46,036 nucleotides of DNA, taken from an uncultured Lachnospiraceae bacterium. GTDB taxonomy: Bacteria; Bacillota; Clostridia; Lachnospirales; Lachnospiraceae. Shown one piece after another: positions 995-18,032 of the stretch. The notes below the pieces were generated by a model, which had not been told where the DNA came from, did not search any database, and saw only the letters and a program-made list of their open reading frames with translations. Both the position numbers and the translations under genes were made by a program. Location: NCBI GenBank assembly GCA_947385425.1, contig CANDKY010000015.1:1-46036 (forward strand), written 5' to 3'. Every line of letters begins with the position of its first letter. The first letter of the stretch is position 1.

Positions 995-1600
995 GTGAGT
1001 CAGAGACGGATAAGTAGAATGATGGGAAGACAATATATTGATGAATTAATAGCAAAACTTTGGAAAGTGGAGATATGGGAAGGTATAGAGAAAAAATGTG
1101 AAGATTATAATGCAGGAATCAGGCTTTTGCTGCAGACATTCTTTGCGCATAAGGAAACAGAATCCCGGCTGTTTTTCATAGGGAATGGAGGAAGCGCTGC
1201 AATAGCGAGTCATATGACCGCTGATTTTATGAAGAATGGCGGTATGAATACTTACAGTCTTTATGATAATGCGGTCACTACATGCATGGGGAATGATTAT
1301 GGGTATGAGTTTATTTTTTCCAGGCCTATGGAATTTCTTGTAAAAGAAAATGATTTGATAGTAGCTGTCAGTAGTTCGGGAAATTCAGGAAATATTATAC
1401 GTGCGATAGAAACTGCCCAAAGTAAGAAAGCATCAGTTATTACTTTTACGGGATTCAGCAGGGAAAACCATGTGAAAAGGATGGGGGATATTAATGTGTA
1501 TGTACCCAGTATGAAATATGGTATGGTGGAATCCATTCATAATCTGATCCTGCAGCAGATAGTGGATATGATAATGGAGAAAGACGGAGTAAATTTATAA
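995..1600 (+). CDS. gmhA: SIS-domain phosphoheptose isomerase (GmhA-like)
   Basis: The family converts sedoheptulose 7-phosphate to D-glycero-D-manno-heptose 7-phosphate, the first step to nucleotide-activated heptose. The sugar-phosphate-binding pattern FFIGNGGSAAIASH is followed by VSSSGNSGN, both typical of SIS isomerases, and a His near the C-terminus (VESIHN) fits the GmhA catalytic His. The 201-residue length fits GmhA (about 190). The GTG at 995 directly follows a short leader frame; ATG 1019 or 1022 is an alternative start. The bifunctional heptose kinase/nucleotidyltransferase two genes downstream supports the assignment. No GmhB-type phosphatase is seen in the window. Confidence 0.85.
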   Translation: MSQRRISRMMGRQYIDELIAKLWKVEIWEGIEKKCEDYNAGIRLLLQTFFAHKETESRLFFIGNGGSAAIASHMTADFMKNGGMNTYSLYDNAVTTCMGNDYGYEFIFSRPMEFLVKENDLIVAVSSSGNSGNIIRAIETAQSKKASVITFTGFSRENHVKRMGDINVYVPSMKYGMVESIHNLILQQIVDMIMEKDGVNL

Positions 1601-1632
1601 ACAGTTTCTTAGAATGGACGGGAGGAAGAAAG

Positions 1633-2625
1633 ATGGTTTCATTGGTGACAGGCGGATGTGGATTTATAGGTTCTCATGTGGTGGATAGACTGTTGGAAGA
1701 GGGGCATACAGTACGGGTAATTGACAATTGGACAACAGGACGGCCGGAGAATCTGGAGCATCAGAAAGACAGCCGGAATCTGACTGTTTATCACATGGAT
1801 ATCAGAAATAAAGAGGAGATAGCCCCAGTATTTCAGGATGTAGACTATATCTTCCATTTGGCGGCGCTGGCGGATATCGTGCCATCAATTCAGAAGCCGG
1901 GGGAGTATTATTCGTCCAATGTTTTGGGAACATACAATGTGGCAGAGTGTGCAAGAGAAGCAGGAATAAGAAAACTGGTGTATGCAGCGTCTTCTTCTTG
2001 TTACGGGCTTCCGGATGAGTACCCGACGAAGGAGACAGCGGCGATAAGGCCGCAGTATCCGTATGCTCTGACTAAGAGACTTGGAGAGGAAATTATACTT
2101 CATTGGGGGCAGGTGTATGGGCTGCCGGTAGTGACACTGCGGCTGTTCAACGTATATGGGACAAGATCGAGGACATCGGGAACTTATGGTGCGGTTTTTG
2201 GAGTATTTCTGGCGCAGAAGCTGGCTGGGAAGCCTTTCACCGTAGTGGGGGACGGAAACCAGACAAGGGATTTTACATATGTGACGGATGTTGCGGATGC
2301 GTTTTATACGGCGGCTGTGTCAGATGTGGTGCAGGACACATTTAATGTAGGGAGCGGAGGATGCTATTCTGTAAACCGGCTTTGTACTTTGTTAGGCGGA
2401 GAAATAACATATATTCCCAAAAGACCGGGAGAGCCGGATTGCACATTTGCGGATACATCGAGGATTGAAAGCCGGCTGGGGTGGAAGGCGAAGGTGGCTT
2501 TTGAAGAGGGCGTACAGAAGGTACTGGAAAATATAGATTATTGGAGGGCTGCACCAGTGTGGACACCGGACAGTATCGGGGTGGCGACGGAGGACTGGTT
2601 CAAATACCTTGGGAAAGAAAAATAG
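1633..2625 (+). CDS. NAD-dependent sugar epimerase/dehydratase (extended SDR family)
   Basis: Starts at ATG 1633 after GGGAGGAAG. The N-terminal Rossmann motif TGGCGFIGSH (residues 6-15) and the catalytic YALTK (Tyr144, Lys148) with upstream Ser residues (about 120-122) define an intact extended SDR. The 330-residue length fits nucleotide-sugar 4-epimerases such as UDP-glucose/UDP-GlcNAc epimerases. Lying between the heptose isomerase and the heptose kinase-like gene, it may act on a nucleotide-activated heptose or hexose. The exact substrate cannot be read from the sequence. Confidence 0.8.
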   Translation: MVSLVTGGCGFIGSHVVDRLLEEGHTVRVIDNWTTGRPENLEHQKDSRNLTVYHMDIRNKEEIAPVFQDVDYIFHLAALADIVPSIQKPGEYYSSNVLGTYNVAECAREAGIRKLVYAASSSCYGLPDEYPTKETAAIRPQYPYALTKRLGEEIILHWGQVYGLPVVTLRLFNVYGTRSRTSGTYGAVFGVFLAQKLAGKPFTVVGDGNQTRDFTYVTDVADAFYTAAVSDVVQDTFNVGSGGCYSVNRLCTLLGGEITYIPKRPGEPDCTFADTSRIESRLGWKAKVAFEEGVQKVLENIDYWRAAPVWTPDSIGVATEDWFKYLGKEK

Positions 2626-2645
2626 GAAGAGGTAAGGATATTGAC

Positions 2646-4184
2646 ATGGGAAAAATAGTCTCCAAGGATGAATTTAAGAACGGGATAAGACAGAAAATAA
2701 AAGAAGAGGGCAAGACAATAGCTTTGTGTCATGGTGTGTTTGACTTGATGCATCCGGGGCATATTATCCATCTGGAGCAGGCAAAAGGGATGGCAGATGT
2801 TCTGGTAGTGTCTGTTACGGCGGCGAAATATGTGCGGAAAGGGCCGGGAAGGCCGTACTTTGCGGATGAGATGCGGATGAAAGTACTGTCTGCATTAGAA
2901 TGTACAGATTATATTATGCTTTCAGAAGGATATACTGTGGACGATATCATTGAAAGTGTGCGGCCCGACATTTATGTGAAAGGTGCAGAGTATGCGAAAG
3001 CGGAGGATGATATCACCGGAAAGATCGCTGAGGAAAAGGAACTGGTAGAGAAACATGGAGGGAGGATTGCGTTTACTGGCGGAGATGTGTTCAGTTCCAC
3101 AAAGCTGATTAATACTGCAATGTCAGGGTTGCCGGAGGAAGTCAGGAGCTTTATGGAGGATTTCAGGATAAGGCATACTATGGAGGAAGTCAGGTGGTAT
3201 GCACAGAGAGCTGAAAGGTTAAAGGTGTTGGTGCTCGGTGATGTGATTATTGACAAGTATACTTACTGCAATGTACAGGGGATCATGTCAAAGGATATGG
3301 GGTATTCAGCGAGATTAGGGTACTCGGAAGAGTATTTGGGAGGAGCAGCGGCGATTGCAAGACATCTTGCCTCATTTTCGAACAAAGTGACATTGATGTC
3401 GATTATTGGCAGTGAGGAAGGGATAAGACGGAAACTTTTTGAGGAACTGGGGGACAGGGTACGGCTGGATCTGATGAACAGTAAGACTTTTCCTTCGATT
3501 ATGAAACACAGATATCTTACGCGGAACGAAAAGAGGGAAGAGTACCGGAAGATTTTTGCCATTAACAATATCCCAGAGTATATGCAATATGAGGAAGAAG
3601 TACATAGGGGGTTCCAAGAGAAACTGGAAACACAGATTGAGGACTATGATGTGGTGTTTCTGTGCGATTTTGGTCATGGACTGGTGAATAGAAAGGTTAT
3701 GGATATAGTTCAGGCCAAGGCGAAATATTTAGTGTTGAATTGCCAAACAAATTCATCGAACAAGGGATTAAATATTATTACAAAGTATAGCAGGGCGGAC
3801 GTGTTTACTCTTGATCAGCAAGAACTGAAATTGGCTTTTCCGGAATATGCGTTAAATGAAAAAGCGGGATTGGCGAAATTAGCAGAACATCTAAAGGGGG
3901 ATGGATGGCTGACGAGAGGATCCAAGGGGGCATATGGTGTATCCGAGAATGGATATGAGGTAATGGAGTGTCCGGCTTTTACACTGAATGTAAAAGATAC
4001 TATTGGAGCGGGAGATTCTTTCTTTGCGGTGGCAGGAATTTTTGCAGCGGCAGGAGCGCCTGCAGAAGTGGGGACTTTTGCAGGAAACATAGGGGGTGCG
4101 CTGGGAGCTAACATTGTAGGGAATAAACATGCGGTGGAGAAAGTGAATGTGCTGAAATTTGCGAGTACGTTGATGAATGTATAG
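2646..4184 (+). CDS. Bifunctional nucleotidyltransferase/PfkB kinase, HldE-like with reversed domain order
   Basis: Start ATG 2646 follows AGGAAGAGGTAAGG; the frame runs further upstream but overlaps the epimerase. Residues about 25-150 form a cytidylyltransferase-type domain with HPGH at 36-39. Residues about 190-512 form a PfkB/ribokinase-type domain with the catalytic DTIGAGD at 451-457. E. coli HldE, which phosphorylates heptose 7-phosphate at C1 and adenylylates heptose 1-phosphate, has the same two domains in the opposite order. With GmhA nearby the likely role is making an NDP-heptose, with the intermediate phosphatase encoded elsewhere. The nucleotide (ADP, CDP or GDP) is unknown. Confidence 0.8.
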   Translation: MGKIVSKDEFKNGIRQKIKEEGKTIALCHGVFDLMHPGHIIHLEQAKGMADVLVVSVTAAKYVRKGPGRPYFADEMRMKVLSALECTDYIMLSEGYTVDDIIESVRPDIYVKGAEYAKAEDDITGKIAEEKELVEKHGGRIAFTGGDVFSSTKLINTAMSGLPEEVRSFMEDFRIRHTMEEVRWYAQRAERLKVLVLGDVIIDKYTYCNVQGIMSKDMGYSARLGYSEEYLGGAAAIARHLASFSNKVTLMSIIGSEEGIRRKLFEELGDRVRLDLMNSKTFPSIMKHRYLTRNEKREEYRKIFAINNIPEYMQYEEEVHRGFQEKLETQIEDYDVVFLCDFGHGLVNRKVMDIVQAKAKYLVLNCQTNSSNKGLNIITKYSRADVFTLDQQELKLAFPEYALNEKAGLAKLAEHLKGDGWLTRGSKGAYGVSENGYEVMECPAFTLNVKDTIGAGDSFFAVAGIFAAAGAPAEVGTFAGNIGGALGANIVGNKHAVEKVNVLKFASTLMNV

Positions 4185-4289
4185 AAGTATGTATAGAAAC
4201 AAAGAGGTGTATGAGTACGGATTCATACATAAAAATATTGGGAGAATGAGAAGAGGGATGGCGGCTGACATATGGCAGAGGATTTAAGA

Positions 4290-5333
4290 ATGGATTCACA
4301 TAAACTAATTTATCATCCGGAGGCAGTGTCCAGGTGGATGAGAGGGGAGAACATATATCCTATTGAGATAGAGATATCCCCCAGCGGGGCATGCAATCAC
4401 AGGTGTGCATTCTGTGCGGTGGATTATATCGGTTACAGGCCGGATTTTCTTGATATGGATACAATATTGAGGGATATATCTCAGATGTCACAAAAAGGAC
4501 TTAAAAGTGTTATCTGTTCCGGAGAGGGGGAACCGCTGCTGAACAAGGATATGCCGGATATTGCCAACAGGATAAATGCCTGCGGCGTAGACGTGGCGAT
4601 GAGTACTAACGGTGTGTTGTTTACGAAAGAGAGGGCTGAGGATTGTCTTGGAGCCTTTACATGGATCCGTTTTAGTGTGGCGAGTATGGAGGAGGAGTCC
4701 TATAACCGAATTCAGCGCGGGAAGCAAGGTGATTTGAACAAGGTAAAAAGGAATTTGGAGGAAGCTGTGAAGATCAAGAGGGACAGAGGGCTTAAGACTA
4801 CTCTTGGCGTGCAGTGCTTGTTATTGCCTGACAATATGGCGCAGTTGCCGGACATGGCAAGGCAGTTGCGGGAAATCGGTGTGGATTACCTGACCATTAA
4901 GCCTTATTCGCAGCATTTACACAGTGAAAACAGTTTCTGGATAGATTATGATGCCATGCTGGAACTGGAACAGGAAATGGCAGGGTATGCGACAGATGAA
5001 TTTGCTGTTTATTTCCGGGTGAATGCTATGAAGAAAATACACTATGAAAAATGCTATAAGCAGTGTTTGGGCCTGCCTTTTATGACACATATTGATGCAA
5101 AAGGAAATGTTTGGCCGTGTGTGGCACATATCGGAACAGAGGGGTTTAGTTACGGGAATATATATGAACAGACTTTTGAAGAAATATGGGAAGGGGAAAG
5201 GCGGCAGGATATTATAAGAAAACTAAATGGATTAGATGTTAACCGGGAATGCAGAGAAGCATGCAGGCTGGATGAAATAAACAGATACTTGAATGATTTG
5301 GTGCATCCGGGCGCACATGTGAATTTTATATAG
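4290..5333 (+). CDS. Radical SAM/SPASM enzyme
   Basis: ATG 4290 is preceded by AGAGGA with a 7-base gap and is preferred over ATG 4272. The CNHRCAFC motif (Cys35, Cys39, Cys42) binds the radical SAM [4Fe-4S] cluster. A C-terminal set of Cys (PCVAH about residue 275, CREAC about 325) indicates a SPASM domain holding an auxiliary cluster. SPASM enzymes include sugar dehydrogenases/epimerases as well as peptide-modifying enzymes. No precursor peptide is visible nearby, and the neighbours are sugar genes (epimerase, DegT aminotransferase). I therefore infer a radical modification, deoxygenation or epimerisation of a sugar. Confidence 0.8.
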   Translation: MDSHKLIYHPEAVSRWMRGENIYPIEIEISPSGACNHRCAFCAVDYIGYRPDFLDMDTILRDISQMSQKGLKSVICSGEGEPLLNKDMPDIANRINACGVDVAMSTNGVLFTKERAEDCLGAFTWIRFSVASMEEESYNRIQRGKQGDLNKVKRNLEEAVKIKRDRGLKTTLGVQCLLLPDNMAQLPDMARQLREIGVDYLTIKPYSQHLHSENSFWIDYDAMLELEQEMAGYATDEFAVYFRVNAMKKIHYEKCYKQCLGLPFMTHIDAKGNVWPCVAHIGTEGFSYGNIYEQTFEEIWEGERRQDIIRKLNGLDVNRECREACRLDEINRYLNDLVHPGAHVNFI

Positions 5334-5384: not shown

Positions 5385-6497
5385 ATGGATAGAATGATTA
5401 AGCCGACACAACCGGTTATGCCGGATATGGGTGAGTACATAAAAGAAATAGGTTCTATTTGGGACACTGGAATTATGACGAATAATGGTGATAAGGTACG
5501 CCGGCTGCGGGAAATGCTGGCAGACTATTTGGGCTGCGGAAACATTGACTTATTTGTGAACGGGCATTCTGCATTGCTGATAGGTATTCAGGCGCTGCAC
5601 CTGAAGGGAGAGGTTATAACATCCCCATTTACATTTGTATCTACAACCAACGCGATTATACAAAGCGGGCTTACGCCGGTATTCGGGGACATAGATGATA
5701 CTTATAATCTTTCGCCGGATTCCATAGAGGAATTGGTAACAGACAGGACGAGTGCTGTTATAACGCCCCATATATTCGGAATTCCGTGTAATGTAGAAAA
5801 GATAGAAGAGGCAGCGGCAAAACATAATTTAAAAGTGATTTACGATGGTGCACAGGCATTTGGGACGAAATTAAAGGGAAAGCCGATTGGCTGCTTCGGG
5901 GATATTACCATGTTCAGTTTTCATGCTATCAAGATATTTAACTCGATAGAGGGCGGAATGCTATCATACAAGGATGCACAACTTCAAAAAGCATTCGAAC
6001 TGTATCGGAATTTCGGAATATCATATGAGGAAATGGGAACGGATGTAGAAGTAGTGGGTATGAATGCCAAAATGAATGAATTTCAGGCAGCTATGGGGAT
6101 TGTGAACTTGCCTGGGCTGGATGGTGAGATTAAAAAAAGGAAGAGGCTTGCTGAAATATATTGTGAATGTCTGAAGGATGTGGCTGGAGTTCAAACATAT
6201 CCATATGGTTCAGATATTGATTATAATTATGCCTATTTTCCAGTAAGAATAACGGAAGAATATGGTATTTCAAGAGATGAATTATGGCTAAAGCTGAAAA
6301 AAAAGGGGATTGGTACACGGAAGCTGTATGAGAGGCTTACATGTGATTATAGCTGTTATCAGGGGGCTGGATACCGCAGAAGTACTAAGTATGCTGACAT
6401 AATAAAGGGAATGGTGTTGGATTTGCCTGTTTATGGGACTCTGTCAGAAACAGATGTGGCTTATATATGTAATGAAATGAAAGCGTTGAGAGGATAA
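5385..6497 (+). CDS. DegT/DnrJ/EryC1-type PLP sugar aminotransferase
   Basis: The 370-residue protein has the complete DegT/DnrJ fold signature. It includes the PLP-phosphate-contacting FVNGHSALLIG region, the Asp of YDGAQAFG, and the Schiff-base Lys at about 183 in SFHAIKIFNSIEGG. That last pattern is typical of enzymes making dTDP-amino-dideoxy sugars (VioA/FdtB group). It transfers an amino group from glutamate to a keto-sugar nucleotide in the cytoplasm. It sits directly after the radical SAM gene. The keto-sugar substrate is not known, and no 4,6-dehydratase is present in the window. Confidence 0.85.
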   Translation: MDRMIKPTQPVMPDMGEYIKEIGSIWDTGIMTNNGDKVRRLREMLADYLGCGNIDLFVNGHSALLIGIQALHLKGEVITSPFTFVSTTNAIIQSGLTPVFGDIDDTYNLSPDSIEELVTDRTSAVITPHIFGIPCNVEKIEEAAAKHNLKVIYDGAQAFGTKLKGKPIGCFGDITMFSFHAIKIFNSIEGGMLSYKDAQLQKAFELYRNFGISYEEMGTDVEVVGMNAKMNEFQAAMGIVNLPGLDGEIKKRKRLAEIYCECLKDVAGVQTYPYGSDIDYNYAYFPVRITEEYGISRDELWLKLKKKGIGTRKLYERLTCDYSCYQGAGYRRSTKYADIIKGMVLDLPVYGTLSETDVAYICNEMKALRG

Positions 6498-9051: not shown

Positions 9052-10359
9052 ATGGGACTGGATTATAATGTAATAGATGTTATCATTGCACAATATCCAG
9101 ATTCAAATATAAGGTATGTTTTAGAATATGATATCAGGAAGAATGATATTGTATTGTTTATAGATGATGTTATTGATTCAAAAGAGGCAGATATCGATCT
9201 TAGTTATATATATAACGATTATAAGGGAGATAAGTGGCTGTATTCAGATAGGCCGATTCATACAACGTATACAGGAAATATTCTGATTGCGGATGAGATA
9301 GTAAAGAGGATTGTGGGGCCGGTATTTGCCAATTCAGTAAAAGAAAATGACTATGTTGGTTTACATAAAGGGGAGAAGCAGTTAACTTATGAAGAAGATA
9401 TTGCATTAAAACAGTATATAAACGGGATAAAGAAATATAGAGGGAAGAGGGATTTAGGTATAGGAGCCTGTGTGGTAACTTGTAATCCTTTTACTAAAGG
9501 GCATTTTCATTTGATAGATTATGCAAGCAGGCAAGTTAATTTTTTATATGTGTTTGTAGTGGAAGAGGAGGCGGTTTTTTTCCCGTTTGAAGACAGGATA
9601 GAGATGGTACGCAGAGGATTAAGCGGACTTGGAAATGTATTGGTCTGCCCAAGCGGTAAATTTATTATTTCAAGGTCAACTTTCAAGAACTATTTTGAAA
9701 AGGAAGTATGTAGAGATGCCATTATTGATGCATCAAAAGATACAATGATTTTCAGGAAATATATTGCTCCTGCATTGGGGATATCTAAAAGGTTTATAGG
9801 GGAGGAACCCCAGGATAATATAACACGCCAGTATAATAAACTGTTGAAAAAAGATTTGAATGACGTTATGGAAGTTATAGAAATACCCCGTTTGGAAGCG
9901 GAGGGAGAAGTTGTTTCAGCCAGCAGGGTAAGAAAATATTTTCTAAAAAATAATTGGGATGAAATAGGTAAATTAGTGCCCCGATCAACCAAAGAATATC
10001 TACAGGCAAATAAGAGAAAAATCATAGATTTAAAAAATAGAAAGGGGCTTGATGAAATAATAGAATTTATTTGGGAACACAATAAAGTAGTAATATGTGG
10101 TCTGGGAGAAGACGGAAGAAAAATAGTACAGCAGTTAGAGGAAGCATTAGATGAAAAGGAAATGCAAAAGCTGGAATTTTATGATGAAAAATCAGCGGGG
10201 GAAGTGTATAGGGATAAGATAGTTATGGATTTTGAACAACTTGTGAATCGAAGAAGAGATGATTATCTGCTGATTACAACAAGTAAATTTAAAAAGGATA
10301 TCTTTTATTTGTTGAGACGGCGGGGCGTGGATGCAGAGCATATTTTGGTTGCTGAATAA
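9052..10359 (+). CDS. CitC-like nucleotidyltransferase with C-terminal Rossmann-like domain (3' part of split gene)
   Basis: The frame is open from the G8 tract at 8953; ATG 9052 is only the first available internal start. From about residue 140, CNPFTKGHFHLIDYA carries the HxGH-type nucleotidyltransferase signature. FPFEDRIEMV and VVSASRVRKYF follow, as in citrate lyase ligase (CitC), which adenylylates acetate. No citrate lyase genes are near, so a role in activating a glycan substituent with a nucleotide is more likely. Residues about 340-435 (VVICGLGEDGRK...FYDEKSAG) repeat the small Rossmann-like domain of this cluster. Upstream in the open frame, a GPC...GG segment resembles an SGNH-like start. 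Confidence 0.65.
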   Translation: MGLDYNVIDVIIAQYPDSNIRYVLEYDIRKNDIVLFIDDVIDSKEADIDLSYIYNDYKGDKWLYSDRPIHTTYTGNILIADEIVKRIVGPVFANSVKENDYVGLHKGEKQLTYEEDIALKQYINGIKKYRGKRDLGIGACVVTCNPFTKGHFHLIDYASRQVNFLYVFVVEEEAVFFPFEDRIEMVRRGLSGLGNVLVCPSGKFIISRSTFKNYFEKEVCRDAIIDASKDTMIFRKYIAPALGISKRFIGEEPQDNITRQYNKLLKKDLNDVMEVIEIPRLEAEGEVVSASRVRKYFLKNNWDEIGKLVPRSTKEYLQANKRKIIDLKNRKGLDEIIEFIWEHNKVVICGLGEDGRKIVQQLEEALDEKEMQKLEFYDEKSAGEVYRDKIVMDFEQLVNRRRDDYLLITTSKFKKDIFYLLRRRGVDAEHILVAE

Positions 10360-10389: not shown

Positions 10390-11964
10390 ATGTATGATAG
10401 CAATTTTATCAGGAACATACTGAAAGAGTATATTGATAAAAAGATAGATAAGTTTGTCATTTATCCGTATGGCGTAAACGGGACAAATACTAAAAATGTT
10501 TTAAACAATTATTTTGATTTAGATCCGCAGTTTATTGTAGATAATATGTATGCCAAATATCATTCCAAGATTATCGATATAGATGAATTACGAAATGTTT
10601 ATCGAAAGGATATGTATATTATTCTCACGGTAGAAGATTTTTCCAAGAATACGGAACGGTTAAAAGAACTTTCAGGGTTTATTCCTGCAGAGAATATTAT
10701 TAATCTTCGGAATATGGATAACGGGAAGAGGGAAGAAGAAAAAGCAGAAGAAAACCTTAAGATGGGAAAATTGATTCCCTGGCTGGAATTGACACAGCGA
10801 AATAAACCGTTTAACAACCGAAAAATAAATGTTGTATTTCATATTGGCGCAGCGGCAGAACATTGGAGCTCGACGAAACCGTTGTATGACCTCTTTTGTA
10901 AAGATAATAAATATAATGTGATGGTTGTGCCGTTAGATTCGCCGCGTTTTGAGGAAGACAAAAAACGCATCAGGAAAGATGGGGTTCAGATTATAAAAGA
11001 GGTGGAATTTCCGGAAGATATAGAGCCTGATATTGTAATCGCCAGTGGTTTTGGGTTCCAGGAGCCATATACGTTTTCTACAGCCAAAATTATTGGAAGA
11101 TCTAAAATTATTATAGGGATCTTTGACAGATTGATAGATTTTGATATAGGAGGGGGAGTAACAGAAAGGTATTATGCTCATTTTGGAAGGAATGGAAGAA
11201 TAAAATATTGCGATTATTATATTGCAGATACATCTCTATACAGGCAATTAGTGAAAGATACGGATGAAAGACGCAGAAGTAAATTGGTTGAAATGGGACA
11301 TACCAAATTTGACAAAGTTTTTCTTTCAACCCGGGAGAAGAATTACCCGCCGGGATGGGAAAAGCTGAAGGGAAGAAAAGTAATTTTATGGGCGCCGGTT
11401 CATGGTGTATATGATAGAAAAATCCAATGGTGGTATACTCTGGATTTATATGCTGGAAGTATATTAAAGTATGCAATGGAGCATAAGGAAGCAGGGTTGG
11501 TAATCCGCCTGCAGAATATACTGATTTGGGAATTGATCGAGCAGGGTTTCTGGAGCTATAAAGAACTGCAGGCATTAAAGGATTTTTGCAGGGAATCTGA
11601 AAACATTGTTTTTGATGAAGAACCTTCCTATATTGCAGCGTATTCCGTTATGGACGGAGTAATAACAGATAATAGATGCTCTGTAGAGCATACAGCTTTA
11701 CCGACGTTAAAGCCTATATGTATTACATATAGAAATGATATGGAGCTTGGGACTGATACACAGGAATTAAAAGAAATTCTTTATGAGGCGCGCAGCGGAG
11801 AAGATATCGAAAAATTTTATGAGATGATACTTCATGGCAGAGATCCTATGCTGGAGAACAGAAAGGATAATATGGGAAATTTTATAAAGAATTTCGATGG
11901 AAAAAATACACAGCGGATAAAAAACTTTATAGAGGACAGGTTCTATGAAAAATGCACGAAATAA
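10390..11964 (+). CDS. CDP-glycerol glycerophosphotransferase-like GT-B protein with N-terminal Rossmann-like domain
   Basis: The 524-residue protein starts with the recurring small domain (VIYPYGVNGTNTKN, then FIVDNMYAKYHS, residues about 17-60). From about residue 140 a two-domain GT-B fold resembles the TagB/TagF family of teichoic-acid glycerol- or ribitol-phosphate transferases: KVILWAPVHG and EEPSYIAAYSVMDGVITDNRCSVEHTA fit the conserved His and C-terminal Asp/Ser region. It would transfer a polyol phosphate from a CDP donor. The preceding nucleotidyltransferase-like gene may supply that donor. Confidence 0.7.
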   Translation: MYDSNFIRNILKEYIDKKIDKFVIYPYGVNGTNTKNVLNNYFDLDPQFIVDNMYAKYHSKIIDIDELRNVYRKDMYIILTVEDFSKNTERLKELSGFIPAENIINLRNMDNGKREEEKAEENLKMGKLIPWLELTQRNKPFNNRKINVVFHIGAAAEHWSSTKPLYDLFCKDNKYNVMVVPLDSPRFEEDKKRIRKDGVQIIKEVEFPEDIEPDIVIASGFGFQEPYTFSTAKIIGRSKIIIGIFDRLIDFDIGGGVTERYYAHFGRNGRIKYCDYYIADTSLYRQLVKDTDERRRSKLVEMGHTKFDKVFLSTREKNYPPGWEKLKGRKVILWAPVHGVYDRKIQWWYTLDLYAGSILKYAMEHKEAGLVIRLQNILIWELIEQGFWSYKELQALKDFCRESENIVFDEEPSYIAAYSVMDGVITDNRCSVEHTALPTLKPICITYRNDMELGTDTQELKEILYEARSGEDIEKFYEMILHGRDPMLENRKDNMGNFIKNFDGKNTQRIKNFIEDRFYEKCTK

Positions 11965-12040: not shown

Positions 12041-12820
12041 ATGAAAGTAATTATATTAGCAGCGGGGCAGGGGACAAGACTTCGGCCGCTGACAGATGAC
12101 AGACCGAAATGTATGGTAGAGGTTAATGGAAAAAGCATTATTGAACGGCAGTTGGATACGATAAGGAACTGTGGAGTCAGGGATGAGGATATCGCTATTG
12201 TAACAGGGTATTGCAGCGATGTATTGAGCAACAGGTTTAAAGATACGGCAATTTCTTTTGTCAGGAATGAGAAATTTGAAACTACTAATATGGTGTATTC
12301 CCTGATGTGTGCAGAAAAAACAATGGAATCCGATTCAGATATTGTTGTTTCCTATGGCGATATTATTTATGATGAGACAGTTTTTCGAAAAGTTATTAAT
12401 GCCGGGGATGAGCTGTCCGTTATTGTGGATGACGGTTGGTATGAATATTGGTCGCAACGGAATGAAAACCCATTGGATGATGCAGAAACGTTAATGTTTG
12501 ATCAGGATGATTATTTGACAGAGATCGGGCAGAGAACGAAGGAACTGGATAGGATACAGTCCCAGTATATTGGATTAATGCGTTTTCGGGGAAAAGGGGT
12601 GGAAAAAGTTTTGGCTCTGAATGCTGAGGCCAAAAGAAGGAGCGGGCAGGGGGAACCGCTTTGGAAGACGGACAGGAGTTATTCCAGAATGTATATGACA
12701 GATTTGCTGCAGGGGATGATTGAAGAAGGCCATAAGCTGAGGGCAGTTCATATTAATAGAGGATGGTATGAGATAGATGACGGGAATGATTTGAAAATAG
12801 CAGAGGCGGGAATCAAATAG
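12041..12820 (+). CDS. CTP:phosphoglutamine cytidylyltransferase (C. jejuni Cj1416-like), MeOPN pathway
   Basis: Start ATG 12041 follows AGAGGGGGCAGAGGA. Residues 6-18 (LAAGQGTRLRPLT) with RPKCM form the nucleotide-binding signature of sugar-phosphate and choline-phosphate nucleotidyltransferases; TTNMVYSL and VSYGDIIYD fit the LicC/Cj1416 type. The 259-residue length fits Cj1416. Alone it could be any small-molecule cytidylyltransferase. The next five genes supply every other known step of methyl phosphoramidate synthesis, so I infer that it turns L-glutamine phosphate and CTP into CDP-glutamine. Confidence 0.82.
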   Translation: MKVIILAAGQGTRLRPLTDDRPKCMVEVNGKSIIERQLDTIRNCGVRDEDIAIVTGYCSDVLSNRFKDTAISFVRNEKFETTNMVYSLMCAEKTMESDSDIVVSYGDIIYDETVFRKVINAGDELSVIVDDGWYEYWSQRNENPLDDAETLMFDQDDYLTEIGQRTKELDRIQSQYIGLMRFRGKGVEKVLALNAEAKRRSGQGEPLWKTDRSYSRMYMTDLLQGMIEEGHKLRAVHINRGWYEIDDGNDLKIAEAGIK

Positions 12821-12835
12821 GATGGAACAGGCAAT

Positions 12836-13351
12836 ATGAGTGCAGTTTACTGGATAACAGGACTTTCCGGCGCGGGGAAGACTACCATAGGAAAAATATT
12901 TTATGAAAAAATCAGAGAGAAGTATCCCAATACGGTGTTCCTTGACGGGGATATCCTGCGCAAAGTATTTGGGGATGATTTGGGATATACAAAGGAGGAA
13001 CGCAAAAAGTGTGCCATGAGGTATAGCAGGCTGTGTGATATGTTACAAAAACAGGGAATAAATGTGATCTGCTGTACGATATCCATGTTCGACAGTGTGC
13101 GTGAATGGAACCGTGAGAACATCTGCGGTTACAGAGAAATTTATGTAAAAGCATCTATGGATACTCTGAAAGCCAGGGATCAGAAAGGTCTTTACAGCGG
13201 AGTTACACAGGAAAAGCAGAAGGAAGCAGTAGGAATCCATATGGAAGCAGAAGAACCCAGAAATCCTGATTTGGTTTTACAGAATGATGGGCTGCGTACA
13301 CCTGAAGAGCAGGCAGAAACAGTATTCCGGTATTTTCTGCATGATGAATAA
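12836..13351 (+). CDS. APS-kinase-like CDP-phosphoramidate kinase (Cj1415-like), MeOPN pathway
   Basis: A 171-residue CysC-type P-loop kinase: Walker A GLSGAGKTT at residues 9-17, FLDGDILRKVFGDDLGYTKEER as in adenylylsulfate kinase (Asp-Gly-Asp, then Arg), and REIYVKASMDTLKARDQKGLY. No sulfate-assimilation genes surround it; it lies 15 bases after the cytidylyltransferase and just before the glutamine-kinase-like gene. In C. jejuni the CysC-like Cj1415 phosphorylates the 3'-OH of cytidine diphosphoramidate. I infer the same role here. A true APS kinase is the alternative. Confidence 0.82.
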   Translation: MSAVYWITGLSGAGKTTIGKIFYEKIREKYPNTVFLDGDILRKVFGDDLGYTKEERKKCAMRYSRLCDMLQKQGINVICCTISMFDSVREWNRENICGYREIYVKASMDTLKARDQKGLYSGVTQEKQKEAVGIHMEAEEPRNPDLVLQNDGLRTPEEQAETVFRYFLHDE

Positions 13352-13376
13352 TATGGGGTATGAAAAGAGAGAGAGT

Positions 13377-15755
13377 ATGAAACTAGGTACAAAGGCAGAG
13401 TCCTTATATATACTTGAGCAAAATTTAAGAGGGGCAAAGGTTCTGCCGCAGTATGTGTTTACGGTTGGGCAGTGGAGAAAGGACAAACCCGGTATTTTGG
13501 AGAAATTTTGGGAACTGCCATGGAAGGAAAAAGTCATAGTGCGAAGCAGTTCGTTACAGGAGGACACAGGGGAGCAGTCTTTGGCGGGGAAATATGAGTC
13601 GGTGGCTGATGTATCAGGAAAAGACAGGTTCGCATATGCAGTGGATAAGGTTATAGAATCTTACGATGATGGCAATGAATTTAATCAGGTACTTGTACAG
13701 CCTATGCTTGAGGACGTTGACATTTGTGGGGTTGCATTCACTCTGGAGCCGGGAACAGGCGGGCATTATTATGTGGTTAGTTATGATAAGTCGGGATCCA
13801 CTTCAGCTATAACATCCGGGGGAAGTTCTGATAGTTGTTTGTATTATCGGTTCAAGGAATGCACAGATGAAAGGGAAGAAAACAGGAATCCGCAGATGGA
13901 GATGCTGTGCAGGACACTGCATGAACTGGAGCATATTTTTGGGATGGAGAATTTGGATGTGGAGTTTGCTTATACGAAAGACGGCGGCCTGTATATTCTT
14001 CAGGTGAGGCCTTTATGTGTGGAAGCGGGACGGGTTGACAGAAGACGCCAGAAGGAAGAACTGCGCCGTATTGTAGAAAAAGTAACGCTTAACAGCCGGA
14101 AAAATCCGTTCCTATGCGGAGATAGGGCAGTATATAGTGTGATGACGGATTGGAACCCGGCTGAAATGATAGGTGTAAGGCCGAAACCATTGGCCATGTC
14201 GTTGTACAGGGAAATTATAACGGATAGTGTATGGGCGTACCAAAGGGACAATTACGGGTACAGGAACCTGCGAAGTTTCCCTTTGATGGTTGATTTTGCA
14301 GGCCTTCCGTATATAGACGTGCGTGTAAGCTTTAATTCTTTCATTCCTTCGGGTTTAGACGAGCCGCTCAGCGAGAAACTGGTCAACTATTACCTTGAAG
14401 AATTGGTAAAGTATCCGGAAAAGCATGATAAGGCAGAATTTGAAATTGTATATTCCTGCTATACATTGGATTTGCAGCAGAGGGTACAGGTATTGAAGGA
14501 ACATGGATTTTCAGAGGACGAGATTGGCAAGATAGTTGGTGCGCTGCGGAATGTGACAAATCACATCATTGATTACCGGAACGGCCTGTGGCGCAAGGAT
14601 TATAAAAAGATAGAATACCTTAATCGGCGTTACAGCGAAGTTATGGAAAGCGGAATGAGTGATATTGAAAAGACTTACTGGCTGCTGGAAGATTGTAAGC
14701 GTTATGGTACGCTTCCGTTTGCAGGGCTGGCGAGGGCTGCGTTTATCGCAGTTCAGATGCTGCGGTCATTCGTATCCTGTGGAATTTTGGGTGAAGAAGA
14801 CTATGAGGCGTTTATGGGTGGAATCGAGACGGTAAGTTCTGGAATGAACAGGGACTACAAAGAATTGTCGAAGTCTTCCTTTTTAAGGAAGTATGGGCAT
14901 CTGCGGCCGGGGACTTACGATATAACATCGCTTCGGTATGATGAGGCGCCGGAACTTTATTTTGACGAATTTTCGGAAACGATGCCCGGATGTCCGGACA
15001 TAAAGGAAAATGGGGATGCTGATTTTGGTGTGGAGGGAAGGAAAAGCAGAGAATTCCGCCTGTCTTTGGGGCAGTTGAACAGGCTGAGGGATATGCTGCA
15101 GGAAAACGGGTTGTCAAATGATGTGCTGGATATTATGGAATTTATGCGGTGTGTCATAGAAGGAAGGGAGTATGGGAAGTTTGTATTTACCAGAAACCTC
15201 AGTATGGCTATGCATCTGATAGGCCAGATGGGTGCCGGGGCCGGAATTTCCAGAGAAGAATGTGCTTACATGAACATCAGGGCAGTATACGATTTATATG
15301 TCTCTACAGGGGACCTGAAAGATAAGTTTCTGGAATCTGTCAGACGGGGAAAAGAAAGTTATGAAATGACGCAGGTCATTACGCTGCCGCCTGTCATTGC
15401 CTTACCTGTTGATGTGTATTCGTTTTATTATCCGGATTCCGAACCTAATTTTATCACATCACGGAAGATTTGCGGTGAAGTAGGTATTCTCGAAGCTATG
15501 GAGGACATGACGGATATTGAAGGGAAGATAGTAATGATACAGAGCGCGGATCCCGGATATGACTGGATATTTTCCCATGGGATTGGAGGGTTTGTGACCA
15601 TGTATGGGGGAGCAAATTCACATATGGCAATACGGGCAGGGGAACTGGGCATTCCGGCAGCGATAGGTGTAGGTGCAAAGCGTTTTGAGAGATACCGTTT
15701 TGCTAAAATAATGGAAATAGATGCACTGTCAAAAACGATAAAAATATTAAAGTGA
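13377..15755 (+). CDS. L-glutamine kinase (PEP-synthase-like, Cj1418-like), first MeOPN step
   Basis: ATG 13377 follows AAAGAGAGAG; upstream in-frame ATGs overlap the kinase gene or lack a ribosome site. The 792-residue protein has an N-terminal ATP-grasp region of the PEP/pyruvate-binding type (VRSSSLQED residues 55-63, GVAFTLEPGTG, LYILQVRPL) and a C-terminal phosphohistidine swivel domain. GGANSHMAIRAGELGIP places the phosphorylated His at 749. There is no PEP/pyruvate-binding barrel, as in Cj1418 (about 780 residues), which phosphorylates the amide nitrogen of L-glutamine using ATP via phosphohistidine. Rifampicin phosphotransferase-like enzymes share this layout, so context decides the call. 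Confidence 0.85.
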   Translation: MKLGTKAESLYILEQNLRGAKVLPQYVFTVGQWRKDKPGILEKFWELPWKEKVIVRSSSLQEDTGEQSLAGKYESVADVSGKDRFAYAVDKVIESYDDGNEFNQVLVQPMLEDVDICGVAFTLEPGTGGHYYVVSYDKSGSTSAITSGGSSDSCLYYRFKECTDEREENRNPQMEMLCRTLHELEHIFGMENLDVEFAYTKDGGLYILQVRPLCVEAGRVDRRRQKEELRRIVEKVTLNSRKNPFLCGDRAVYSVMTDWNPAEMIGVRPKPLAMSLYREIITDSVWAYQRDNYGYRNLRSFPLMVDFAGLPYIDVRVSFNSFIPSGLDEPLSEKLVNYYLEELVKYPEKHDKAEFEIVYSCYTLDLQQRVQVLKEHGFSEDEIGKIVGALRNVTNHIIDYRNGLWRKDYKKIEYLNRRYSEVMESGMSDIEKTYWLLEDCKRYGTLPFAGLARAAFIAVQMLRSFVSCGILGEEDYEAFMGGIETVSSGMNRDYKELSKSSFLRKYGHLRPGTYDITSLRYDEAPELYFDEFSETMPGCPDIKENGDADFGVEGRKSREFRLSLGQLNRLRDMLQENGLSNDVLDIMEFMRCVIEGREYGKFVFTRNLSMAMHLIGQMGAGAGISREECAYMNIRAVYDLYVSTGDLKDKFLESVRRGKESYEMTQVITLPPVIALPVDVYSFYYPDSEPNFITSRKICGEVGILEAMEDMTDIEGKIVMIQSADPGYDWIFSHGIGGFVTMYGGANSHMAIRAGELGIPAAIGVGAKRFERYRFAKIMEIDALSKTIKILK

Positions 15756-15766
15756 GGAGTAAGAGG

Positions 15767-16534
15767 ATGAAACATGGAGACTTTACAGAACTGGCAAAGT
15801 TTTATAGGAACAGGCCAGGATACTCTAGCGTTGTACTAAAATGTCTGAAGAACCATGTGCTCAACAGTATCGGAGAAGGGAAGGTTGCGGATATCGGAGC
15901 AGGCACTGGTAAGCTGACGGAGAATCTGGCTGGTCTTGGACTTGGCGGGTTTGCGGTAGAACCGAATGAAGCAATGCGTGCAGAAGCAGAAAATGTGTCC
16001 GGGGGGGGGTTCATTTGGAAGGAGGGAACTGCTGAAGCGACAGGGCTTGCGGATAGTTGTGTAAATTGGGCACTGATGGGTTCTTCCTTCCATTGGGCGG
16101 ACAGCAGACTTGCAGTGAGGGAGTTCTATCGGATACTGGTTCCCGGGGGGTTTTTTACGGCTATCTGGAATCCAAGGGATATTGAGCGGAGCGAACTGCA
16201 TAAGAGGATAGAAGAAGCAGTATATTCGGAAGTGCCGGGAATGCGGCGTGTTTCTTCAGGCAAATCTGTTTCTACCGAAGAAATGAGGGATAAACTGCTC
16301 GGAGAAGGATTATTTAAAGACATTTTTTTTGTAGAGGCTCCGCATACAGAATTTATGACAAAAGAAAGATATATGAACACATGGAAGTCTGTCAATGATA
16401 TCCAGGTGCAGGCAGGCAAGGAAGGTTTCTGCAGGATTCTTGAGAAAATAGGGAAAATCATATGTGAGTTTGATGAAATTGAAGTTCCGTATCTGTCCAG
16501 GTCATGGACAGTGCAAAGCAGCAAGCAGTCCTAG
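15767..16534 (+). CDS. SAM-dependent methyltransferase (Cj1419-like) with internal G9 tract, MeOPN pathway
   Basis: ATG 15767 follows GTGAGGAGTAAGAGG; a GTG at 15752 overlaps the previous stop. The 255-residue class I methyltransferase has motif I VADIGAGTGKL (residues 40-50), AVEPNEAM, and the GSSFHWAD and VPGGFFTAIWNPRD motifs. It resembles the second methyltransferase at 16661 throughout, giving a tandem pair like Cj1419/Cj1420 of C. jejuni, which are needed for the methyl group of MeOPN. Codons Gly79-81 are encoded by a run of nine G, so slippage would truncate it. In this sequence the gene is intact. Confidence 0.8.
   Translation: MKHGDFTELAKFYRNRPGYSSVVLKCLKNHVLNSIGEGKVADIGAGTGKLTENLAGLGLGGFAVEPNEAMRAEAENVSGGGFIWKEGTAEATGLADSCVNWALMGSSFHWADSRLAVREFYRILVPGGFFTAIWNPRDIERSELHKRIEEAVYSEVPGMRRVSSGKSVSTEEMRDKLLGEGLFKDIFFVEAPHTEFMTKERYMNTWKSVNDIQVQAGKEGFCRILEKIGKIICEFDEIEVPYLSRSWTVQSSKQS
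16001..16009 (+). repeat. G9 homopolymer inside the first MeOPN methyltransferase gene
   Basis: Nine consecutive G encode Gly79-Gly81 of the methyltransferase. Gain or loss of one G shifts the frame about one third into the protein. The tract is in the ON register here. Together with the G8 tract at 8946 it suggests slipped-strand phase variation within this cluster. Confidence 0.75.
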
Positions 16535-16660
16535 TACTCCATCCAGACTGAGTGGAACTTGAATTTCTGGCTGGATGGCGCATTGGTCCGTTTATGCCGA
16601 AAATCCCGTTATGCCTGCCGAGTGTCTGTACTATGAAATAGTGAAAGAAAGGATGAGGAT

Positions 16661-17413
16661 ATGAAAACGGAATGGGATTATACGGACTTGGCGGAAGCAT
16701 ACTTGAAGCGGCCGGATTATGCACAGGCGGCAATTGATGGGATGCTGGAGACGGCGGGGGTAAAGCCAGGGGATGCAGTATGTGATGTGGGGGCAGGTGT
16801 TGCGCACCTGACTTTGAAGCTGGCGGCGTGTGGGCTGGATGTCTGTGCAGTGGAGCCGAATGACGCGATGCGCAGGAACGGTGTTATTCGGACAGAGCAG
16901 TATAAAAATGTTCGCTGGTTTGAAGGTGTGGGAGAAAATACGGGAATGGAAGATAGCAAGTTTGATTTGGTGACGTTCGGATCGTCCTTTAATGTATGCG
17001 ACCGTCAGGAAGCGTTGAAAGAATCAGAGAGAATTCTCAAAAAAGGAGGATGGTTTGCCTGCATGTGGAACCATCGAAACCTGGAGGATCCTCTCCAGAA
17101 AGAGATTGAGGAAATCCTCAGAAGCCGGATTGAAGGCTATGAATATGGGACAAGAAGGGAAGACCAGACGGAAGTTATTAACCAGTGCGGATTATTCGGG
17201 GATGTGGCTTATATAGAGGGGATTGTAGTGCATGATATGCTGGCGGAGGATTTCATCGAGGGATGGAAGTCTCATGGTACGGTGCAGAGGCAGTCAAAGG
17301 ATAAGTTTCAGTTTATCAATGAGGAGATACGCAGAGTAGTTGAGGCAAAACGCCAAAAATATATCCAGGTGCCATATACGACCAGAATATGGATGGCGCA
17401 AGTAAGGGAATAA
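16661..17413 (+). CDS. SAM-dependent methyltransferase (Cj1420-like), MeOPN pathway
   Basis: ATG 16661 follows AAAGGATGAGGAT. It has 250 residues: motif I VCDVGAGVAHLTLKLA, AVEPNDAMRRNG, FGSSFNVCDRQEAL, and LKKGGWFACMWNHRN. It aligns by eye along its whole length with the methyltransferase at 15767, so the two arose by duplication or were inherited as a pair, as with Cj1419 and Cj1420. One of them, or both together, would O-methylate the phosphoramidate intermediate. The 126-base gap before it holds no recognisable gene. Confidence 0.8.
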   Translation: MKTEWDYTDLAEAYLKRPDYAQAAIDGMLETAGVKPGDAVCDVGAGVAHLTLKLAACGLDVCAVEPNDAMRRNGVIRTEQYKNVRWFEGVGENTGMEDSKFDLVTFGSSFNVCDRQEALKESERILKKGGWFACMWNHRNLEDPLQKEIEEILRSRIEGYEYGTRREDQTEVINQCGLFGDVAYIEGIVVHDMLAEDFIEGWKSHGTVQRQSKDKFQFINEEIRRVVEAKRQKYIQVPYTTRIWMAQVRE

Positions 17414-17426
17414 GGCAGGTGGGAAT

Positions 17427-18032
17427 ATGGGAACTGTGCTGTATACACAGAGAGTAGAGTTTATAGAGAGTTATGGGGAGCGGAGAGATTGTTCAGATCA
17501 GAATATTTCACGATTTATTCAAACCTGCGGATATCTGCCAGTTCCGGTTCCGAACATGTTAGAAGATCCGGAAGAGTTTACTGCTTATGTAAAGCCTGTG
17601 GGGATTGTCCTGACTGGGGGAAATTCATTGGTAAAGTACGGCGGTAATGCACCGGAAAGAGACAGGACAGACAGGCTGCTTATAAAAGCCGCAATAGGGA
17701 GGGGGATTCCAATATACGGATTCTGCCGCGGCATGCAGTCTGTTCTGGATTATTTTGAGTGCAGGTTGGAAAATGTGGAAGGGCATGTAGCAATCCGGCA
17801 TTCCGTCCAGGGGATATGGGGGGCAGGAGAAGTAAACAGTTATCATAACCAGGCATGCAGAAAGGTCAGAGAACCTCTGTATGTGGCACAGATGGCAGGA
17901 GACGGGGTGATAGAGGCTGTAGAATGCCCACAGTATAAGATTATGGCGGTTATGTGGCATCCGGAACGGGAAAATCCGTTCAGGGAAGAAGACATTATGA
18001 GAGTTCGTAATTTGTTTGGATGGAAAATTTAG
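17427..18032 (+). CDS. Gamma-glutamyl-CDP-amidate hydrolase (class I GATase-like, Cj1417-like), MeOPN pathway
   Basis: A 201-residue single-domain class I glutamine amidotransferase/peptidase C26 protein: nucleophile elbow YGFCRGMQ with Cys100, and MWHPERENPF with His178 and Glu180 completing the triad. VLTGGNSLVKYG fits the oxyanion region. It stands 13 bases after the second methyltransferase. In C. jejuni, Cj1417 hydrolyses CDP-glutamine to glutamate and cytidine diphosphoramidate, releasing the P-N group. A gamma-glutamyl-polyamine hydrolase (PuuD type) is an alternative if viewed alone, but no polyamine genes are nearby. Confidence 0.83.
   Translation: MGTVLYTQRVEFIESYGERRDCSDQNISRFIQTCGYLPVPVPNMLEDPEEFTAYVKPVGIVLTGGNSLVKYGGNAPERDRTDRLLIKAAIGRGIPIYGFCRGMQSVLDYFECRLENVEGHVAIRHSVQGIWGAGEVNSYHNQACRKVREPLYVAQMAGDGVIEAVECPQYKIMAVMWHPERENPFREEDIMRVRNLFGWKI

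Follow-up and report, generated by a model that had tools for sequence, protein, structure and literature searches.

A probable phosphoramidate-donor operon in a gut Lachnospiraceae bacterium and the spread of its gene set across bacterial phyla

The closest described counterpart of the locus analysed here is the pathway by which Campylobacter jejuni makes the O-methyl phosphoramidate (MeOPN) of its capsule (Cj1415-Cj1422; HS19.01-HS19.07), in which Cj1419 and Cj1420 are methyltransferase-like. According to passages of a 2025 paper, Cj1415-Cj1418 convert glutamine, ATP and CTP to CDP-phosphoramidate 3'-phosphate, while Cj1419 and Cj1420 carry no functional assignment and their knockouts left the CPS without apparent change (PMC11800397); as of 2026, decoration with the methylated group is described as 'currently unclear' (PMC13276843). 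The MeOPN group serves as a phage receptor in C. jejuni and affects serum resistance (passages of PMC3907429 and PMC9561416), and a review from 2022 describes the kinase as specific to C. jejuni (PMC9561416). P-N groups on surface glycans have also been described outside Campylobacterota, in the LPS of Xanthomonas campestris and Shewanella (passages of PMC3907429 and PMC3655273), where the part of PMC3907429 concerned presents them as lacking O-methyl.

The window, a stretch of 46,036 nucleotides from an uncultured Lachnospiraceae bacterium, contains an operon that very probably follows the C. jejuni route to an activated phosphoramidate, to be donated to a surface glycan. The likeness lies in family and role. 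In both organisms the four donor enzymes, glutamine kinase, cytidylyltransferase, CDP-amidate hydrolase and 3'-kinase, are encoded side by side among surface-glycan genes, and two methyltransferase genes adjoin them. The differences are that the host belongs to Bacillota rather than Campylobacterota, that the transferase of this genome is a candidate only, and that the same genome bears a second, divergent cassette without methyltransferases. The relevant features are as follows.

995-1600, + strand: SIS isomerase, heptose-type, surface-glycan locus
1633-2625, + strand: NAD epimerase, heptose-type, surface-glycan locus
2541-4184, + strand: HldE-like protein, surface-glycan locus
10390-11964, + strand: candidate phosphoramidate transferase, by a weak profile match a distant relative of CDP-glycerol glycerophosphotransferases
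12041-12820, + strand: CTP:phosphoglutamine cytidylyltransferase-like nucleotidyltransferase (role of Cj1416), 259 aa
12836-13351, + strand: APS-kinase-fold protein, proposed CDP-phosphoramidate 3'-kinase (role of Cj1415), 171 aa
13377-15755, + strand: L-glutamine kinase-like protein (role of Cj1418), 792 aa
15752-16534, + strand: SAM methyltransferase 1, proposed donor methylation, 260 aa, GTG start, PF08241 over cut-off
16661-17413, + strand: SAM methyltransferase 2, same family, 250 aa, PF08241 over cut-off
17427-18032, + strand: gamma-glutamyl-CDP-amidate hydrolase-like C26 enzyme (role of Cj1417), 201 aa

The six adjacent genes reported in the earlier note are indeed there: the ORFs from 12041 to 18032 are all open, run in the same direction and are closely packed, with gaps of 15, 25, -4, 126 and 13 bp (the kinase frame is already open from 13284). 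Further upstream, the gmhA-like and HldE-like NCBIfam matches in 995-4184 fall under their cut-offs; the assignment of these heptose-type genes draws on Pfam as well. The 12041 protein exceeds the Pfam cut-offs for PF12804/PF00483, has CTP:phosphocholine cytidylyltransferase as its top PDB relative (1.4e-15) and belongs to an alignment in which R13 and K23 are kept in 77/77 sequences; among the 25 of 41 NCBIfam matches listed, no family specific for phosphoglutamine cytidylyltransferase activity appears. The kinase scores 924.7 bits against NF004508/PRK05849 (cut-off 501), and its Pfam content, PPDK_N and PEP-utilizers only, suggests PEP-synthase-like ATP-binding and His domains without the pyruvate barrel. 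Its His749 (codon 15621-15623) is found in 82 of 85 aligned kinases, the remaining 3 being gapped, and hydrolase residues C100, H178 and E180 are each present in 79/79 aligned sequences, so that the residues singled out by the earlier note are real and the enzyme set fitting the donor pathway retains its conserved catalytic residues. The families it had named as competing identities lie far under their cut-offs: rifamycin phosphotransferase (NF041857, 42.8 of 999 bits, with PEP synthase, TIGR01418, at 50.7 of 739.75) for the kinase, PuuD gamma-glutamyl-GABA hydrolase (NF008471, 48.2 of 266) for the 17427 protein, and the apsK equivalog (115.5 of 138.7) for the 12836 protein, which reaches 107.8 bits with PF01583 and 184.1 with NF004041 (cut-off 127).

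By analogy with the named Campylobacter enzymes, the 13377 protein would act as an L-glutamine kinase, the 12041 cytidylyltransferase would join phosphoglutamine to CMP, the 17427 hydrolase would strip the glutamate to leave CDP-amidate, and the 12836 enzyme would put on a 3'-phosphate. One or both methyltransferases might then supply an O-methyl group, and a transferase, perhaps the 10390-11964 protein, would pass the group to a sugar; these last two steps are the least certain. On our best reading the likely product is 3'-phospho-CDP-(methyl)phosphoramidate, of which we infer the methylation.

Does the gene set hold together elsewhere? Eighty loci were collected by the glutamine kinase alone, and partners were counted up to 10 kb from it, or over a shorter distance where less of the contig was available. 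The hydrolase lies near the kinase in 75/80 loci, the cytidylyltransferase in 73/80, the CysC-like 3'-kinase in 66/80 (fused copies included) and the methyltransferase family in 64/80; the corresponding counts among the 54 loci flanked by 5 kb or more on each side are 52, 53, 50 and 44. Named strains that carry the set include Lachnospiraceae bacterium 28-4 (L027) and Anaerotruncus colihominis DSM 17241 (L070), the latter with a linked sulfotransferase-family protein. Each partner is found in 0/20 control loci, PEP-synthase-like and drawn from 51 below-cut-off places, and the co-occurrence of the gene set exceeds chance. Most loci missing the hydrolase (L022, L025, L043, L044, L060) or the cytidylyltransferase (L022, L025, L041, L043, L044, L061, L077) are short or cut contigs, L022 and L060, with at least 5 kb on either side, being true exceptions. 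The cassette-bearing kinase relatives span nine phylum labels. The proposal of a new host lineage thus holds in that the genes lie outside Campylobacterota, and fails in its uniqueness, given these nine labels and the Xanthomonas and Shewanella phosphoramidates described in passages of PMC3907429.

Fusions and co-variation bind the gene set further. The CysC-like enzyme is fused to the kinase in 14 loci forming one clade of the tree, the kinase to the hydrolase in one further record, L100, and a methyltransferase, of the methyltransferase 2 type, to the kinase in frame in a single locus, L029. Pairwise distances of the kinase correlate with those of the hydrolase (0.57, 78 loci) and of the cytidylyltransferase (0.63, 76 loci), with 0/199 shuffles as high in either case. 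In the Lachnospiraceae-like subset, distances of the CysC-like enzyme (0.17, 28/199 shuffles as high, 26 loci) and of the methyltransferase (0.09, 20/199, 27 loci) barely track the kinase, which suggests that these two are swapped more freely.

This loose coupling bears on the leading alternative, that the phosphoramidate stays unmethylated while both methyltransferases, paralogues with 34% identity over 255 positions, act on a sugar of the same glycan. Phosphoramidates without the methyl group are known from the LPS of Xanthomonas and Shewanella, and C. jejuni has them as a variant (passages of PMC3907429 and PMC9561416). The second cassette of this genome does without methyltransferases, and among the 54 well-flanked loci there are 4 core cassettes (L052, L056, L057, L058) lacking both the CysC-like enzyme and the methyltransferase. 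Against sugar methylation stand the L029 fusion, in its one locus, and the confinement of the methyltransferase to loci with the CysC-like enzyme, which accompanies it in 44/44 well-flanked loci; the 4 loci among all 80 with a methyltransferase but no CysC-like enzyme are on short or cut contigs. We regard sugar methylation as unlikely and favour methylation of the donor. The earlier note's 'methyl' is sound as to the linkage of methyltransferases and overstated as to methylation itself, PMC11800397 giving Cj1419 and Cj1420 no functional assignment.

Related gene sets indicate which proteins are the likeliest to methylate the phosphoramidate and to transfer it. The 10390-11964 protein has no Pfam match of its own. 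Its family comprises 18 proteins spread over 17 searched loci, counting the window, and the family profile matches a PF04464-bearing group (97.4%, E 1.4e-11) and retrieves nothing meaningful among PDB sequences; the protein reads RLQN where 13/17 aligned members keep RPH. The donor enzyme set of the claimed 'complete MeOPN cassette' is present, and 'complete' goes too far because no transferase could be assigned, this protein lacking the RPH motif. A second candidate is a sulfotransferase-family protein linked to the cassette in 39/80 related loci (best PDB match 4.6e-14); such a transferase would explain the 3'-phosphate. Its core was not found in this genome, where matches to the family profile were confined to the N-terminal domain. 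In all 30 well-flanked loci that bear it, both the CysC-like enzyme and the methyltransferase are present. As a strict rule this association fails, with 3 exceptions among the 80 loci (L044, L068, L096), each with a contig end no more than 0.9 kb from the kinase. Phylogenetically independent contrasts number 2 to 4, none contrary, and Fisher values ignore kinship; with so few contrasts we claim no significance. TagF-related proteins display no such association. A PF04464-type protein, whose profile retrieves TagF structures, stands beside the kinase in the core-only cassettes L050, L052, L056, L057 and L064, and none was found near the kinase in the core-only loci L058 and L076. The resemblance to TagF and other CDP-glycerol glycerophosphotransferases is bounded by the proposed donor, CDP-amidate rather than CDP-glycerol, and by the window's candidate being only a remote relative.

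The enzymes might instead use another amide or nucleotide, for example a different amino-acid amide, and make a related P-N donor, a possibility raised by the hydrolase score of 103.5 bits with NF045546, which does not reach the equivalog cut-off of 250. Gamma-glutamyl-CDP-amidate hydrolase is nevertheless its top NCBIfam match listed by far, the next lying at 48.2, and the two cassette hydrolases stand out in this genome (114.5 and 102.8, next relative 51.4), which makes another substrate improbable. That the genes have decayed or survive as an unexpressed relic is more improbable still: the genome is a draft in 198 contigs, the transferase is insecure and the candidate's motif is altered, but six frames are intact, catalytic residues are retained and gaps are short.

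The APS-kinase fold of the 12836 protein invites comparison with PAPS sulfate activation, in which an enzyme of this fold likewise yields a 3'-phosphorylated nucleotide donor; here the donor would be CDP-phosphoramidate 3'-phosphate, and ATP sulfurylase was not found (PF01747, 0 matches in a genome 96.95% complete). The genome's two APS-kinase matches sit in its two cassettes and are left without a known APS source, since no ATP sulfurylase was found. Its sole PF01507 match is a 452-aa protein adjoining a ParB-like gene, presumably YbdN-like and unlike CysD in size and neighbour, and PF13469 returns 0 matches, hence no Sulfotransfer_3 protein. These observations, together with its score under the apsK cut-off, suggest that 12836 is not an APS kinase, and we propose it as a CDP-amidate 3'-kinase. 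True APS kinase activity serving sulfation through PAPS is scarcely credible despite the fold and the sulfotransferase-family genes beside related cassettes, as it would also leave the kinase, the cytidylyltransferase, the hydrolase and the CysC-kinase fusion unexplained.

Several further leads were rejected. A scan of viral_contigs gave 65 pattern matches and 0 confirmed phage-borne cassettes, and the single match among 50,697 phage records, MT837632, is most likely bacterial, because it also bears ORFs that we take from their translations to be murC-, prs- and trxB-like. A paper on the flagellin glycan of Clostridium botulinum (PMC2674064) contains the word phosphoramidate only in a reference title, and an invertible promoter near window position 1 is unsupported.

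We tentatively hypothesize, at somewhat less than even confidence, that phosphoramidate activation parallels sulfate activation as a general process found across phyla. A movable core of glutamine kinase, cytidylyltransferase and hydrolase would supply CDP-amidate directly to TagF-like transferases, and an extended form would add an APS-kinase-like enzyme and a donor methyltransferase for sulfotransferase-family enzymes that use 3'-phospho-CDP-methylphosphoramidate as others use PAPS, the linked methyltransferases being the missing MeOPN methylating enzyme. If so, tandem redundancy would explain the silent Cj1419 and Cj1420 knockouts. Two steps of the Campylobacter pathway stand without an enzyme or details, and concrete proteins to test are offered by the fusion of methyltransferase to kinase and by the sulfotransferase-family genes linked to related cassettes. 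The literature consulted presents the chemistry as particular to Campylobacter, whereas the gene set occurs here in gut Lachnospiraceae and under eight other phylum labels; P-N bonded glycans may, therefore, be a wider surface modification, one that may escape standard glycan analysis. As MeOPN is a phage receptor in C. jejuni, phages of the gut may likewise recognise this group on commensal bacteria.

The six open reading frames of the earlier note stand at 12041-18032, all on the plus strand, separated by 15, 25, -4, 126 and 13 bp, in a genome of 4.42 Mb and 198 contigs. The kinase at 13377 scores 924.7 bits against NF004508/PRK05849 (cut-off 501), and the CysC-like protein at 12836 scores 184.1 bits against NF004041 (cut-off 127). 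For the hydrolase at 17427 the top family is gamma-glutamyl-CDP-amidate hydrolase; the score of 103.5 bits falls short of the strict cut-off (250) but is well above the 48.2 of the runner-up family. The cytidylyltransferase at 12041 has a nucleotidyltransferase fold, with CTP:phosphocholine cytidylyltransferase as the closest solved structure, and the two methyltransferases are paralogues (34% identity across 255 positions).

Could the CysC-like gene be a true APS kinase? NF004041 is itself titled adenylyl-sulfate kinase, but the protein stays under the cut-off of the apsK equivalog (115.5 bits against 138.7), and of the two APS-kinase matches in the window genome each cassette holds one. A search of this genome for a PF01747-type ATP sulfurylase gave nothing, an absence that is strong but not absolute given its 96.95% completeness, and the single PF01507 protein, of 452 aa and adjoining a ParB-like gene, is presumably YbdN-like. 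A working APS kinase would thus have no known source of APS. Reading the glutamine kinase as a rifamycin phosphotransferase or a PEP synthase is rejected, at 42.8 and 50.7 bits, far under those families' cut-offs.

An alignment of four kinases, run against 84,980 species genomes, matched at least 587 stretches; confirmation left 523, and the 80 with the highest scores form the set of loci used here. Partner profiles were run over these 80 loci, within 10 kb or to the contig limit. Among the best 80 of 523, the hydrolase is linked in 75, the cytidylyltransferase in 73, CysC in 66, a methyltransferase in 64, a sulfotransferase-type protein in 39 and a TagF-related protein (PF04464-bearing group and 10390-11964 family taken together) in 26, counts which may fail for more distant relatives. 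In the 54 loci that have 5 kb or more to either side of the kinase the corresponding numbers are 52, 53, 50, 44, 30 and 20. Both sets of counts come from profiles that were built from the 80 loci, the window and L013-L018 and are not independent of the loci counted. Among the 54, L022 lacks both hydrolase and cytidylyltransferase, L060 lacks the hydrolase, and CysC is absent from L052, L056, L057 and L058. The control loci, 20 of 51 PEP-synthase-like places below the cut-off with up to 10 kb around each, had no part in building the profiles and gave no partner match at any profile threshold.

Single-frame fusions join the kinase to a CysC domain (14 loci), a methyltransferase (L029) and the hydrolase (L100); judged from these frames, it is tied by fusion to three of four partner activities, two of the three on one record each. 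Since the 14 CysC fusions coincide exactly with a single supported clade in the kinase tree, they probably reflect one event. At L018 (2834-5614) the kinase carries about 140 extra N-terminal residues, by eye like a CTP_transf-type nucleotidyltransferase, possibly a further fusion. Kinase pairwise distances correlate with those of the hydrolase (0.57), cytidylyltransferase (0.63), CysC (0.51) and methyltransferase (0.25); for none of the four did any of 199 shuffles reach the observed value. Within the Lachnospiraceae-like subset (L019-L047 and the window) the values are 0.53 and 0.42 for hydrolase and cytidylyltransferase, and 0.17 and 0.09 for CysC and methyltransferase, where 28 and 20 of 199 shuffles are as high. 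By this measure kinase, hydrolase and cytidylyltransferase are co-inherited as a core, CysC and methyltransferase being exchanged more often. Family scores, linkage and fusions together support well the reading of the gene set as a phosphoramidate pathway.

The proposal of a new host lineage has to be cut back: Lachnospiraceae carry the set, but the window is only one of its many scattered occurrences. By record titles, the 85 rows of the kinase tree comprise Bacillota (38), Pseudomonadota (17), Acidobacteriota (10), Spirochaetota (5), Planctomycetota (2), Verrucomicrobiota (2), three more phyla with one each, and 8 ungrouped rows. Named strains occur among the Bacillota and Pseudomonadota; rows beyond these bear no cultured-strain name and are nearly all titled MAG, so that some contigs there may be misbinned. 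The window kinase falls within a Lachnospiraceae clade (nearest row L042, 73% identity). Another genome of its genus has a kinase identical to that of Lachnospiraceae bacterium 28-4 (L027, KE159600.1), which marks the host as a Lachnospiraceae relative. The set turns up only sporadically, in 3 of 41 relatives, own genome counted, and in 1 of 398 genomes drawn evenly across the phylum, again the own genome. Earlier work describes unmethylated phosphoramidate forms in Xanthomonas and Shewanella (PMC3907429), phosphoramide on Xanthomonas LOS (PMC3655273) and Cj1418 as the first amide-N kinase (PMC10971088), and a 2022 review calls the kinase C. jejuni-specific (PMC9561416); the literature covered also includes PMC12409886, PMC8708908 and PMC2674064. 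The open literature yielded nothing joining MeOPN with Lachnospiraceae, although an earlier remark on wider distribution is possible, nor phosphoramidate polysaccharide with Anaerotruncus, nor anything relevant on methyl phosphoramidate with sulfotransferase.

The genome's second cassette (L013, 4344-12182, on contig C19) is divergent and without methyltransferases, with identities of 44% (kinase), 55% (hydrolase), 38% (cytidylyltransferase) and 29% (CysC); its kinase forms a long separate branch of unsure position. An AlgX-like gene within it and a DltD-like gene close by are possible alternative transfer enzymes. Seven cassettes, mostly from Pseudomonas (L081, L083, L085, L087, L089, L093, L097), adjoin flagellar-looking hook and filament genes, which from their translations we take to be flgH, flgJ and flgK; these neighbours suggest phosphoramidate on flagellin glycans at the seven loci. 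L100 (MT837632.1), labelled Bacteriophage sp. (UNVERIFIED), combines ordinary-looking bacterial chromosome genes with the kinase-hydrolase fusion, and the phage label is probably wrong.

At four places in the window genome a small serine recombinase gene is immediately preceded by a pair of near-palindromes (core AAAAGTATACTTTT) with a spacing of about 136 bp:

Window, 28-204 and 144-881: palindromes and recombinase
L013 (contig C19), 18942-19790: palindromes and recombinase
L118 (own genome), 4095-4969: palindromes and recombinase
L119 (own genome), 5590-6417: palindromes and recombinase

In the window and L119 these elements are followed by one and the same set of genes (isomerase, epimerase, HldE-like). 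All four places share one orientation, which favours a res-like or operator site over an invertible promoter. Elsewhere in the glycan locus, 9052-10359 encodes a citrate-lyase-ligase-like nucleotidyltransferase under the TIGR00124 cut-off. Two genes adjoin the cassette of a same-genus relative (L016, 12714-14595), one for a further nucleotidyltransferase and one for an aminotransferase-like protein resembling those of 2-aminoethylphosphonate metabolism; perhaps this one locus holds a second phosphorus decoration.

What could attach the tag? In C. jejuni, Cj1415-Cj1418 yield CDP-phosphoramidate 3'-phosphate, Cj1419/Cj1420 are assigned no function and MeOPN is lost on Cj1421/Cj1422 deletion (PMC11800397); synthesis and transfer take seven genes, with decoration details unclear (PMC13276843), and seven gene products are given as HS19.1-7 and HS1.01-07 (PMC10919079, PMC11924219). 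Two classes of transferase candidate recur beside the cassettes, a sulfotransferase family and PF04464-type proteins. Run against PDB sequences, the profile of the former retrieves CurM and tyrosine sulfotransferases (best 4.6e-14). The PF13469 cut-off is reached by individual members from L051, L071 and L003, while those from L035 and L092 fall short. Both the SGS-type and the R-x-P...S loops, which in sulfotransferases bind 5' and 3' phosphates, are present. All 30 sulfotransferase-type carriers among the 54 well-flanked loci also have CysC and methyltransferase, the exceptions in the 80 (L044, L068, L096) each being cut close to the kinase; corrected for kinship, the association reduces to 2 to 4 contrasts, none contrary and too few to establish a rule. 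Such a link would explain the 3'-phosphate of the pathway. PF04464-type proteins neighbour the kinase in spirochaetes and an Acetatifactor whose cassettes consist of the core only; none was found near the core-only loci L058 and L076.

In the window genome, matches to the sulfotransferase-family profile are confined to positions 5-111 of 529, outside any sulfotransferase core, and PF13469 gives 0 matches. The family of 10390-11964, just 5' of the six genes, has 18 members across 17 loci and aligns with the PF04464 group in profile comparison (97.4%, E 1.4e-11). RPH is present in 13 of 17 aligned members; the window copy reads RLQN there, and the motif is also missing in L029, L030 and L033. 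The cassette had been called complete: by gene content this would hold for the donor pathway, but, with no sulfotransferase core and an altered motif in the candidate transferase 10390-11964, the window genome has no secure transferase. On methylation and attachment of the tag, a testable answer comes from the relatives more than from the window.
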